Shown here: positions 4,047 to 10,581 of the stretch, in pieces
Layout of the letters: each line of letters begins with the position of its first letter
How positions within the stretch are numbered: the first letter of the stretch is position 1
From: Halorhabdus amylolytica
GTDB lineage: Archaea > Halobacteriota > Halobacteria > Halobacteriales > Haloarculaceae
Assembly: GCF_004944975.1 (NCBI RefSeq)
Contig: NZ_SPQG01000021.1
Coordinates: 1-35,522 of the forward strand
Direction: 5' to 3'
Length of the DNA: 35,522 bases
Program-made: the position numbers and the translations under genes
The notes under the pieces: generated by a model
What the model was told of the DNA's origin: nothing
Database searches by the model: none
The model's input: the letters and a program-made list of their open reading frames with translations, nothing else

Positions 4047-5696
4047 TCAGGCGACGCTCACCTCGGCATCAAGTAACTCGAGGGCGGCTTCCTTATCGGC
4101 GTAGTACCTGTTGACGTGGGCGGTGAACCGGCGATAGTCCGTGACACCTTCCTCTCTGAGAGCGGTGAGGAACCGCTGGCGGTCACGGAGTTCCGAGAGC
4201 AGTTGTGCCTGGCTCCAGCCCCGTTCGTCACGGATCTCCTCGAGCAACGAGGACCCGTGTTCGGCGAAGGCGTCCCCGGTGGGGTTCCACTCGTAGACAT
4301 TGGCGTAGTCGAGTTCGCCAGTCCGCTGGTCGATCCCTTCGATCTCCGCCAGCACTTTCGCGCGCCGGACGCGCTCGTCGCCTCGGCGGGCCAGGACCTG
4401 GACCGCGAGCACGTCGAGACTTTGGACCATCTGGCGCGGGACGTTGATGGGTTCGTTCTCTAAGCGATTGATGACCGTCTGGACGGAGTCGGCGTGCATC
4501 GTCGAGAAGGTCGTGTGGCCGGTGTTCATCGCCTGAAAGAGCGTGATCGCCTCCTGGCCGCGCACCTCGCCGACGACGATGTACTCCGGGCGGTGACGCA
4601 GCGCCGACCGCAGCAGGTCGTACATCGTGATGTCGTCCTCGTCGAAGCGTTCGCGGGTGACACTCGAGAGCCAGTTGTCGTGATACAGCGACAGCTCGCG
4701 GGTGTCCTCGATAGTGAGAACCTTCGCCCGCGGCGGGATGAACATCGACACGGCGTTCATCGAGGTCGTCTTCCCGGCCGCCGTCCCGCCGGCAAACAGC
4801 AGTGACTTGTTGTGCTCGATCGCCAGCCAGAGGTACGCGAGCATCTCCAGGCTGAAGGTGCCGTACTCCAGGAGGTCGATCGGCGTGAAGGGATCCTCGG
4901 CATACTTCCGGATGGTGAACGCCGAGCCGTGTGGGGTCACTTCCGTTCCCAGTGCGAGTTCGATCCGCGAACCGTCGGGAAGCGTCGTCGAGACCATCGG
5001 GTCAGCGACGCTGATGTGCCGACCCGAGCGCTGGGCCAGCTGGATCACCGCGTCTTCGAGTTCCTCGGCGGAGAAGGAGACGTTCGTCTCGATGTCGGTA
5101 TAGCGATCGTGGTAGGCAAAGATCGGCAGGCCGGTCCCGTCACAGGAGATGTCCTCGATCGCGGGGTCGTGCATCAGCGGATCGATCTTGCCATAGCCCT
5201 GGAACTCCCGATAGAGGTAGTAGAACAGCCGGTGAACCGTCTCGGGACCGACGTCGACGCCGTACTCTTCTAAACGTGCCCGTAGTTCCGCGAGGATGGC
5301 GGTCTCGGGGTCCTCGTCGATGTCGTCGCGGTACAGCAGCGGTCCACGGACATCCTCGAAGAGGCGTTCGAGCAGGTCCCGCTGGAACGTATCGAGGTCC
5401 GGTTCGGCGACGTAGTAGTGGTGTTCGTCCTGCTCGGGGTCGTGATTGATCGACGCGAAGGCGTACGGCGCGTTCAGCCAGTAGCGTTCGATCTCTTCCA
5501 TCTCCGGGCGTCCATCGAAGGACACAAGGCGACCGTGTCGCGCCGGATCGTAGCGATCCAGTGGCACCCGCGACCCGGCGAGTACCCGAGTGATCCTGCC
5601 GAGCCAGTCTCGCACACCGGTCAGCCGGCCGGTCCCGTCCGAACGCTTCGCTCCCGACGACTCCTCCTCCGCGACGGTCTCGGTGGTGTCTGCCAT
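4047..5696 (-). CDS. pilB: Type II/IV secretion system ATPase (PilB/VirB11 family)
   Basis: A 549-residue hexameric-type secretion ATPase. The Walker A loop GGTAAGKTT is at 303-311, an Asp-box-like VLTIEDTREL at 326-335, the Walker B region YIVVGEVRGQEA at 372-383 and a His-box TGHTTFSTMHA at 392-402. The N-terminal 270 residues are the archaeal N-terminal domain that contacts the membrane platform. It should power assembly of an archaeal type IV pilus together with the following gene, which begins one base after its stop. Upstream, a TTTAAG-like box (5761-5767, minus) is about 67 nt from the ATG, and GGTGA (5703-5707) lies six bases before it, so this gene probably has a leader and a Shine-Dalgarno site, unlike most of its neighbours. 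Which haloarchaeal PilB paralogue it is cannot be decided. Confidence 0.92.
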   Translation of the reverse strand: MADTTETVAEEESSGAKRSDGTGRLTGVRDWLGRITRVLAGSRVPLDRYDPARHGRLVSFDGRPEMEEIERYWLNAPYAFASINHDPEQDEHHYYVAEPDLDTFQRDLLERLFEDVRGPLLYRDDIDEDPETAILAELRARLEEYGVDVGPETVHRLFYYLYREFQGYGKIDPLMHDPAIEDISCDGTGLPIFAYHDRYTDIETNVSFSAEELEDAVIQLAQRSGRHISVADPMVSTTLPDGSRIELALGTEVTPHGSAFTIRKYAEDPFTPIDLLEYGTFSLEMLAYLWLAIEHNKSLLFAGGTAAGKTTSMNAVSMFIPPRAKVLTIEDTRELSLYHDNWLSSVTRERFDEDDITMYDLLRSALRHRPEYIVVGEVRGQEAITLFQAMNTGHTTFSTMHADSVQTVINRLENEPINVPRQMVQSLDVLAVQVLARRGDERVRRAKVLAEIEGIDQRTGELDYANVYEWNPTGDAFAEHGSSLLEEIRDERGWSQAQLLSELRDRQRFLTALREEGVTDYRRFTAHVNRYYADKEAALELLDAEVSVA

Positions 5697-7815: not shown

Positions 7816-8681
7816 GCGTCCTCGTAGACGAGGATACCCGCGTCATCGTCCAGGGGATCACCGGCGGCGAGGGCGAGTTCCACGCCGAGCAGATGATCGA
7901 GTACGGGACGAACGTCGTCGCCGGCGCGGTCCCGGGCAAGGGCGGTCAGGAGGTCCACGGAGTACCGGTCTACGACACAGTGAATCAGGCCGCCCGCGAG
8001 GCCGAGGCCGACGCCTCTGTCGTGTTCGTCCCGCCCGCTTTCGCTGCGGACGCGCTCTTCGAGGCGCTGGACGCACCCCTGGACGTCGTGGTCGCAATCA
8101 CCGAGGGGATCCCGACTCAGGACGTCAGCGAGGTATACGAACAACTCCGGCGCACGGACACACACCTCATCGGGCCGAACTGTCCGGGGATCATCACCCC
8201 CGGCGAAACGAAACTCGGTATCTTGCCTGGCAACATCTTCGAGTCCGGCGAAGTCGGGCTGATCTCCCGGTCGGGGACGCTCACGTACCAGATCGTCGAT
8301 AGTCTCACACAGCGGGGGATCGGCCAGTCGACGGCAGTCGGCATCGGCGGCGATCCAATCATCGGAACGGGGTTTATCGACGCCCTGGAACTGTTCGAAG
8401 CAGATCCCGACACGGAAGCCGTCGTCATGTGCGGCGAGATCGGCGGCGAGGACGAGGAGGAGGCTGCCCGTTACATCGCCGAATACATGGATACGCCGGT
8501 GGTCGGGTTCATCGCCGGTCGGACCGCCCCGCCGGGTAAACGCATGGGCCACGCCGGTGCGATCGTCTCCGGCAGCGGCACTGGCACCGCCGAGAGCAAG
8601 ATCCAGGCGCTGGAGAACGCCGGGGTTCCCGTCGCCGAAACGCCCGATGAGGTCGCCGATCTGGTCGAAGAAGTCCGTTGA
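7812..8681 (+). CDS. sucD: Succinate--CoA ligase (ADP-forming), alpha subunit
   Basis: A 289-residue alpha subunit of succinyl-CoA synthetase. The N-terminal CoA-binding Rossmann part begins [25 protein letters not shown], with the PGKGG segment and later [12 protein letters not shown]. The phosphorylated histidine lies in [19 protein letters not shown] near residue 240. The ATG at 7812 is preferred over an in-frame GTG at 7803, because it starts the conserved SVLVD sequence and forms an ATGA overlap with the preceding mini-ORF. Only a weak GGGGTGG precedes it, so translation probably depends on coupling. It is convergent with deoC. Confidence 0.96.
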
Positions 8682-8730
8682 CCGGGTCATCGAATCCTGG
8701 AGCCGAGCGACGGTGACCTGAACGATTCCA

Positions 8731-8752
8731 TTTTTGACACTCGTCTGTCAAA
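8731..8752. terminator. Probable terminator between sucD and the DeoC-like gene
   Basis: A T5 run (8731-8735) and a 7-bp inverted repeat TTTGACA / TGTCAAA (8733-8739 and 8746-8752) around a 6-base loop lie 50 bp after the sucD stop, in the convergent gap. Archaeal termination depends chiefly on T runs; the role of the stem is uncertain. Confidence 0.45.
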
Positions 8753-8861
8753 GAATCAGTCCGGACACATCCTTCGCGTTGAAACGTCTTCAGTGTCCAC
8801 GGAACCGACCCTATGTTCCCGGTCACTCGCCGTCGGACCGTTGTCGCGGTTCTTCGAGCGA

Positions 8862-9506
8862 TCAGGACCGGGAGTGGCGGTATTCTTCGACGATGCCGTC
8901 GCCACTCGACGTGCCGATTCGCGAGGCACCGGCGTCGAACATCGCCTTTGCCTGTTCCCAGGAGTCGACGTCCCCACTGGCTTTCACCGGGAGATATCGT
9001 GAAATTTGTTTCACATTTTCAGGTGTGGTTTCACCGCCGTTGAATCCAGTAACCGTCCCGAGGTACTCGGCGCCGGCGTCGGCCGCGAGCTTTGCGATCC
9101 GGTCAACTTCGCCGTCGCTCAACAGCGGAGCCTCCACGGTCACCGTCACCGGGAGCGACGTCGCGGCGATCACCTCGGCGATGTCTTCGCCCACTCCGTC
9201 GTCCTCTTCGGCCTTCAGGCGACCGACGTTCGGGACGACTTCGAGTTCGTCCGCGCCGTCCGCCCCGGCACGCTCGGCCTCGGCGGCCTTCATCGACGGG
9301 TCGTGTTGTCCGTGAGGGAAGCCGATCACCGTCGCTAGTCTGACTCCCGGCGCGTAGCTGTCGGCCAGCGAGACGTAACAGGGCGGGACGCGGGCGCCAG
9401 TGCCGTATTGGATCGCGACATCGAGCACCGCGATGACGTCCTCCGGCGTCGTCTCCGGCCCGAGGACGGTGTGTTCGATCCGCGAGGGGACGTCGTCGTA
9501 TGGCAT
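8862..9506 (-). CDS. DeoC/deoxyribose-phosphate aldolase-like protein lacking the Schiff-base lysine
   Basis: A 214-residue TIM-barrel protein of the DeoC family, which normally cleaves 2-deoxyribose 5-phosphate to glyceraldehyde 3-phosphate and acetaldehyde. Family segments are clear: RIEHTVLGPETTPEDV near the start, VPPCYV, VIGFPHGQ, NVGRLKAEE, YLPVKASGDV and ASRIGTSSGDGIVE. The site that reads KTSTG in active aldolases reads GTVTG here, putting Gly150 where the Schiff-base Lys belongs (Lys167 in E. coli). The Asp102 position is Glu89, while the Lys201 equivalent is kept as Lys175. It is therefore a divergent paralogue whose activity is in doubt. The ATG at 9506 is chosen because the family starts there and a TTATAT box (9537-9542) precedes it; an open frame extends further upstream through intergenic repeats. 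Confidence 0.85.
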   Translation of the reverse strand: MPYDDVPSRIEHTVLGPETTPEDVIAVLDVAIQYGTGARVPPCYVSLADSYAPGVRLATVIGFPHGQHDPSMKAAEAERAGADGADELEVVPNVGRLKAEEDDGVGEDIAEVIAATSLPVTVTVEAPLLSDGEVDRIAKLAADAGAEYLGTVTGFNGGETTPENVKQISRYLPVKASGDVDSWEQAKAMFDAGASRIGTSSGDGIVEEYRHSRS

Positions 9507-9536: not shown

Positions 9537-9542
9537 ATATAA
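9537..9542 (-). promoter_or_regulatory. TATA-like box of the DeoC-like gene
   Basis: TTATAT on the minus strand, about 34 nt before the ATG at 9506. It also argues that the upstream part of the open frame is not translated. Confidence 0.5.
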
Positions 9543-9569: not shown

Positions 9570-9673
9570 GTCGCAGTTGCCGAACGGACTGGAGACGTGT
9601 GATCCCAACTGAGGGAGACGTGTCCTTCGGCACAACGGTTGTCGCAGTTGCCGAACAGACTGGAGACGTCTGA
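9570..9673 (+). repeat. Two 33-bp direct repeats in a divergent promoter region
   Basis: Copies at 9570-9602 and 9641-9673 differ at two positions only and are 71 bp apart. Each contains CAGTTGCCGAAC, then (G/A)GACTGGAGACGT. A further GGAGACGTGT lies between them at 9614-9623. They sit between the DeoC-like gene and the DUF63 gene and could be binding sites for a regulator. Phasing of 71 bp is close to seven helical turns. Confidence 0.7.
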
Positions 9674-9729
9674 CGCCGTTGGGCAGAGTGACCGGAAGCT
9701 TTTCCACATATGGCTCAGTGTCGAAATAT

Positions 9730-10581
9730 ATGGTCTTACCGAGTGGATTCGTCGTTCCGGATGTCCCGTATCTGGTGGCGCTAGGACTCGGTTCCCTTCT
9801 CACAACGTTGCTACTATGGGGGCTTGAGCCGCCGGTGACGAAAAACCACGTCTTCGCCTTCTCCCCCTGGATCGCGGTCGGCGGTATCACTCACGCGTTC
9901 TATCAGATTACTGTCCCGCCGGCGGTCACCAGTCCGCCGGGACTGTATCCGGAGTGGGTCGCGCCGCTGTTCTCGGCGCCCGCAGTGTACGTCACGCTTT
10001 ACGTCGTCGTCGGGATCGTCTGGCTGGTGCTCATCTTCGTGGGGGCGATCGGGGGGGCCCTCGACCGCACGCACCTGCATCTGGGGATTACCGGTCTCGG
10101 AGTGCTGGTCGTGTTCCTGACCGCGATGGTCTGGCAGGGTCTGGAGATCGGCCTCTCGCCGACGTGGCCGATCGTCGGGTTAGTGCTCGCAGTGCCGATC
10201 ACCGCCGTGGCGTACTTCCTGTTGAGTATCCGGTGGACGAGCGTGGTCGCCCAGACCGGACTGGCGGGCGCCGCAGTCGTCTTCGCGCACGTCTTCGACG
10301 GCGTGATCACTGCGATCGGTTACGACGTGCTCGGGGCGTCCGAGCGCACCCCGCTCCCGGCGGCGATCATGGCGTTCGCGGGCGACCTTCCGACCGCGGC
10401 GTATCTCGGCAGCGGCTGGCTGTTCGTGGTAATCAAAGTGATCGTCGCCACGCTCGTGGTTGCCGCTGTCGCGGATATCGTCGACGAACGTCCCGCTGCA
10501 GGGAGCCTCTTGCTAACCTTCGTAGCCGCGTTCGGCCTTGGACCGGCGACGAACAACTTCGTGTTATTCTTCCTCGGGTAG
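9730..10581 (+). CDS. DUF63 family integral membrane protein
   Basis: A 283-residue protein with about eight hydrophobic helices, matching the archaeal DUF63 family of unknown function. Recognisable parts are the N-terminal GLEPPVTKNHVFAFSPWIAVGGITHAFYQI, the central VFAHVFDGVITAIGYDVLG and the end DIVDERPAAGSLLLTFVAAFGLGPATNNFVLFFLG. The ATG at 9730 is preferred to an in-frame TTG at 9679, because the latter would add 17 residues not expected in the family and reach into the promoter region. A pyrimidine-rich TTTT (about 9699-9703) could be the TATA element. It shares a repeat-bearing upstream region with the DeoC-like gene. Confidence 0.88.
   Translation: MVLPSGFVVPDVPYLVALGLGSLLTTLLLWGLEPPVTKNHVFAFSPWIAVGGITHAFYQITVPPAVTSPPGLYPEWVAPLFSAPAVYVTLYVVVGIVWLVLIFVGAIGGALDRTHLHLGITGLGVLVVFLTAMVWQGLEIGLSPTWPIVGLVLAVPITAVAYFLLSIRWTSVVAQTGLAGAAVVFAHVFDGVITAIGYDVLGASERTPLPAAIMAFAGDLPTAAYLGSGWLFVVIKVIVATLVVAAVADIVDERPAAGSLLLTFVAAFGLGPATNNFVLFFLG

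Follow-up and report, generated by a model that had tools for sequence, protein, structure and literature searches.

A haloarchaeal DeoC paralogue without the Schiff-base lysine is probably a folded pseudoenzyme

The window analysed here, 35,522 nucleotides in length, is the entire contig C14 of the 3.46 Mb Halorhabdus amylolytica genome. A deoC paralogue encoding a protein of 214 amino acids with a substituted active site (L001) was found on its minus strand at 8862..9506, where the open reading frame and its translation start with an ATG at 9506 and the stop codon ends at 8862. A TATA-like sequence, TTATAT, lies on the same strand at 9537..9542, approximately 31-36 nt upstream of the ATG, and is a candidate promoter element; T/A-rich TATA-like elements about 30 nt before the start were also present upstream of three other deoC copies described below (L004, L172 and L002). 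The intergenic region upstream of deoC additionally contains an imperfect direct repeat of 29 bases (9570-9598 and 9641-9669), the two units being 71 bases apart. The window protein scored 147 bits against the TIGR00126 deoC profile, above the cut-off of 117.3, and in the PDB its sequence matched chains of DERA and proteins designed on the basis of DERA.

Residues were mapped onto E. coli DeoC, taken from NC_000913 and aligned with related sequences. In the E. coli enzyme, Lys167 is the covalent residue, Asp102 and Lys201 take part in proton transfer, and Gly205 in phosphate binding (PMC8403123), while Cys47 is near enough to Lys167 for a cross-link to form between them (PMC6016325). A previous sequence-only reading of this gene had likewise named Lys167 as the Schiff-base residue, and had reported a glycine in its place, a glutamate in place of the proton-relay aspartate and a preserved second active-site lysine, all of which were borne out. 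On the minus strand, codon 150 (GGG, 9057..9059) specifies Gly in the motif GTVTG and aligns with Lys167; codon 89 (GAA, 9240..9242) specifies Glu and aligns with Asp102, a position at which all 151 aligned main-type rows have Asp; and codon 175 (AAA, 8982..8984) specifies the Lys equivalent to Lys201, which is Lys in 153 of 153. The alignment with characterised DeoC and haloarchaeal sequences, which the same reading had proposed, brought out further substitutions: Arg39 (CGC, 9390..9392) for the Cys corresponding to Cys47, Thr121 (ACG, 9144..9146) for the Lys corresponding to Lys137, Asp179 (GAC, 8970..8972) for the phosphate-site Gly corresponding to Gly205 (Gly in all 153 other main-type rows), Thr123 (equivalent to E. 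coli Ile139), Glu159 (G159E) and Thr160 (A160T).

The alignment of main-type haloarchaeal DeoC sequences held 154 rows, 153 besides the window protein. Position 150 was Lys in 151 of those 153, the exceptions being L172 (Gly) and L036 (Glu), and the Schiff-base lysine was thus absent from 3 of 154 related sequences, the window protein among them. Deviations were then counted at those columns on which at least 97% of 152 other rows agree, the part-deleted L036 being left out. The window protein deviated at 8 of 47 such columns, L172 at 7 of 48, L020 at 4, and all others at 0-2. The active-site losses are more than chance would give, since nearly all other sequences deviate at so few conserved positions.

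An AlphaFold2 model of the window protein had a mean pLDDT of 93.2; residues 151-160, which form the loop that follows strand 6, scored 78. With this model as query, VIA-align matched Bacillus halodurans DERA over 210 residues at 1.1 Å (Z 34.4), and solved DERAs in general at Z 33-34. By prediction, the DeoC TIM-barrel fold is intact, as the sequence-only reading had expected. That reading had offered three explanations for the missing lysine: a different reaction, the use of another lysine, or a role as a non-catalytic sugar-phosphate sensor. The second, by which the protein would still be a DERA with Lys175 or some other lysine forming the Schiff base, we consider highly improbable. Lys175 is kept at the canonical Lys201 position, but it is present in every DeoC examined and so is not a new replacement, and the nearby Lys137 equivalent has also gone. 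In addition, the proton-relay Asp and the phosphate-site Gly are changed, and exchange of Lys167 is reported in the literature to abolish E. coli DERA activity. We can say with good confidence, judging from the sequence, that the window protein no longer catalyses cleavage of deoxyribose-5-phosphate, because no imine should be able to form at position 150.

The genome carries two more deoC genes. One, on contig C8 (L002), is the second, canonical copy for which the sequence-only reading had suggested a search: it is 60% identical to the window protein, has the motif KTATG and keeps all catalytic residues. It is accompanied by two PNP_UDP phosphorylases, a cytidine deaminase and an IF-2B-type gene, for which ribose-1,5-bisphosphate isomerase would fit, and these surroundings form a coherent nucleoside-catabolism cluster. 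The other, on contig C4 (L223, about 4588-5290, minus strand), belongs to another subfamily (34% identical, KNSSG) and has genes for a nucleoside hydrolase and a PfkB kinase beside it. Its reading frame is interrupted by a TAG close to the start, and Gly stands where E. coli has Asp102; from its sequence, this copy may also be decaying. Contamination as the origin of a second copy is unlikely because sucC, which lies on the window contig, is single-copy in the genome. A search for DeoC on plasmids gave no match of 60% identity or more, and the matches listed were bacterial.

The locus was compared across six congeneric genomes (G001-G006). In G005, the only deoC of the genome (L004) is 67-68% identical to L001, its catalytic residues are intact, and the two copies share a neighbourhood of genes for a DUF63 protein, an HPP-Usp protein, a potassium channel and TrkA-C proteins. 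The other five congeners (G001-G004 and G006) have the DUF63/potassium-channel neighbourhood, whole or in part, with no deoC in it, and carry a C8-type deoC elsewhere. In the tree, L001 and L004 formed a clade (support 98/95) with branches of 0.97 and 0.30 changes per column, respectively, the L001 branch being 3.3 times the length of its sister's. A deoC near an MtaB-like radical SAM gene was found in G005 and also in another genus (G014, G165 and G033), which makes the mtaB/DUF63 site look like the ancestral deoC locus, and the window gene like the copy that belongs to it. Between deoC and the DUF63 gene of G005 (L034, about 9600-9820) lies a putative miniature transposable element whose inverted ends are GTGTTCAGATAAG ... 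CTTATCTGAACAC. The adjacency of sucD and deoC in the window (8681-8862) was not conserved; sucCD and the DUF63 locus are approximately 70 kb apart in G004, and a rearrangement breakpoint therefore appears to adjoin deoC.

The simplest account of these observations is redundancy: with another deoC present in the nucleoside cluster, most species lost the old one, and here its active site degenerated. Loss of function in a redundant copy fits both the presence of another, canonical deoC in the genome and the absence of any deoC at this locus in sister species, and is the plainest option, although it was missing from the explanations offered by the sequence-only reading. In its strongest form, the copy would be a neutral pseudogene whose first stop or frameshift is still to come, which we rate as possible but on the unlikely side. 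The long L001 branch and the syntenic locus without a copy in five congeners would agree with this, as would the in-frame TAG and the altered Asp102 position of the third DeoC. A further parallel is the main-type DeoC of G033, from the genus of G165 (L036; L220 8178-8792), in which about 65 central residues are missing in frame and Glu replaces the Schiff-base Lys. When neutral decay was simulated until 9 of 47 conserved sites had changed, the frame was stop-free in 31-45% of runs, and it was intact in 1-19% when indels were added at an assumed 0.02-0.1 per substitution, so the window copy could still be a young pseudogene. Against neutrality stand these limited fractions, the codon-position composition of the ORF, which is that of a gene, and the rejection of omega = 1 over the whole window branch (2 delta lnL 23 and 29), on which synonymous sites are saturated and which spans a functional period. 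The omega of this branch was 0.06, not significantly raised, and because of the saturation these tests cannot date the loss in the window copy.

Neutral decay also has to account for the second full-length copy without the Schiff-base lysine. L172, from G165, a genome of another genus in the same family (L219 8988-9698), occupies an otherwise conserved locus beside an MtaB-like gene and has Arg39, Thr121, Gly150 and Thr199 in common with the window protein, although its nearest relative is the lysine-containing L027 of its own genus (75% identical). Gene conversion between the two was considered and judged unlikely, because their Thr121 codons differ (ACG and ACC) and each copy is closest to its own genus. 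Among 8,460 pairs of main-type sequences less than 65% identical to each other, L001 and L172 were the sole pair sharing three residues absent from every other main-type sequence, and the most extreme pair for shared rare residues. Across 392 genomes taken from the order, a validated DNA pattern for lysine-less copies, which is blind to codons starting with A at position 150 and to altered spacing, matched in two, namely at L001 and L172; it detected no copy with a non-A-starting codon 150 in 170 genomes of another family (f4), and with position 150 left free it recovered 146 loci. In a neutral codon simulation at t = 0.2, approximately the observed number of changes, the probability of at least three identical replacements was about 1e-4 to 3e-3, rising to 1-5% with more changes (t = 0.4). 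Lys to Gly requires two bases to change and accounted for about 2% of the replacements in each lineage in the neutral codon model. The test was made post hoc and is based on two sequences, and we therefore treat the convergence as suggestive. Decay by itself may nevertheless be an incomplete explanation, since identity with L172 at Arg39, Thr121 and Gly150 is unlikely under pure drift (about 1e-3 or less).

The convergence raises the possibility that two haloarchaeal lineages independently made an Arg39/Thr121/Gly150 DeoC that handles a sugar phosphate or other anion without a Schiff base, perhaps by a charge swap in which an Arg of strand 2 takes the place of the Lys of strand 6. This repurposing of the site, charge swap included, seems to us unlikely taken as a whole. 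The rarity of the shared residues speaks for it, both copies matched by the DNA pattern having all three, as do the reach of E. coli Cys47 to Lys167 and the predicted intact fold; private changes are also concentrated at strands 4-7 and in residues 150-168. From its place beside the lost lysine, Arg39 could have a compensating or ligand-binding role. The two sites differ overall, however, as D89E, G159E, A160T and G179D are absent from L172 and V91M and S200P from the window protein, and the conserved gene partners reflect an inherited locus and nothing further. On the L172 branch, omega was 0.18 against 0.05 elsewhere (2 delta lnL 6.7), with omega = 1 rejected (5.2), but a raised value is also predicted by relaxed constraint. 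The stronger claim, that such proteins represent a recurrent Schiff-base-free haloarchaeal DeoC with a selected function as a sugar-phosphate sensor or regulator or in a non-aldolase reaction, we hold to be distinctly unlikely. Of the explanations in the sequence-only reading, a different reaction and a sensor have thus gained some support from the independent Arg/Thr/Gly copy in another genus, and the use of another lysine has gained none.

We conclude that the window protein is probably a DERA-dead paralogue, that is, a folded pseudoenzyme. It is a DeoC by sequence and fold, yet lacks two features by which DERA is defined as an enzyme; catalytic residues are lost, the predicted fold is kept, and the genome holds a paralogue that is active as judged by its residues. 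The other two lysine-less copies, in G165 and G033, likewise share their genomes with another, lysine-containing DeoC, and G033 has an apparently intact DeoC of another subfamily. In the course we propose, the residues and frame come from sequence and the barrel from prediction, and we infer the order of events. Once the lineage had a deoC in the C8 nucleoside-catabolism cluster, the ancestral copy at the mtaB/DUF63 locus would have become redundant. Most congeners would then have lost this old copy, while G005, which has no other deoC, kept it intact. In the present genome, its Schiff-base Lys, its proton-relay Asp and some of its phosphate site would have been lost, with frame, promoter-like element and barrel preserved. 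The outcome would be either drift toward loss or retention of the folded barrel, which, with Arg39 beside Lys175, might for example bind a phosphorylated or anionic ligand non-covalently. The convergence favours some selection and the redundancy favours decay; on balance, we place drift somewhat ahead of retention.

Automatic annotation would label this gene deoC and assign to it a reaction that is almost certainly beyond the protein. If the Arg/Thr/Gly replacement was selected, the gene is a small natural experiment in the reuse of a class I aldolase barrel after loss of the covalent lysine; if it is decaying, it is an intermediate in the replacement of an old deoC by the copy within the nucleoside-catabolism cluster. 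The intact syntenic orthologue L004 offers a direct swap comparison. A literature search covering few subscription papers returned no DeoC pseudoenzyme, the match obtained being concerned with microcompartments.

Compared with known systems, the window protein resembles DERA (DeoC, EC 4.1.2.4, TIGR00126) in family score, length, TIM-barrel, the Lys201 equivalent and most conserved columns, and differs from it in lacking the equivalents of the Schiff-base Lys, the proton-relay Asp, Lys137, Cys47 and Gly205. Its closest counterparts, L004 by identity and neighbourhood and L002 by identity, both hold Cys39, Asp89, Lys121, Lys150 and Gly179, which the window protein does not. L172 shares its Arg39, Thr121, Gly150 and Thr199, but keeps Asp89 and Gly179. 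The structure search also returned Kemp eliminase KE70 designs (e.g. 3npu, 8fmd), at 22-23% sequence identity. These are man-made proteins on the E. coli DeoC scaffold, and they resemble the repurposing considered here in that a DeoC barrel is put to a non-aldolase reaction, with the difference that in KE70 this was done by design.
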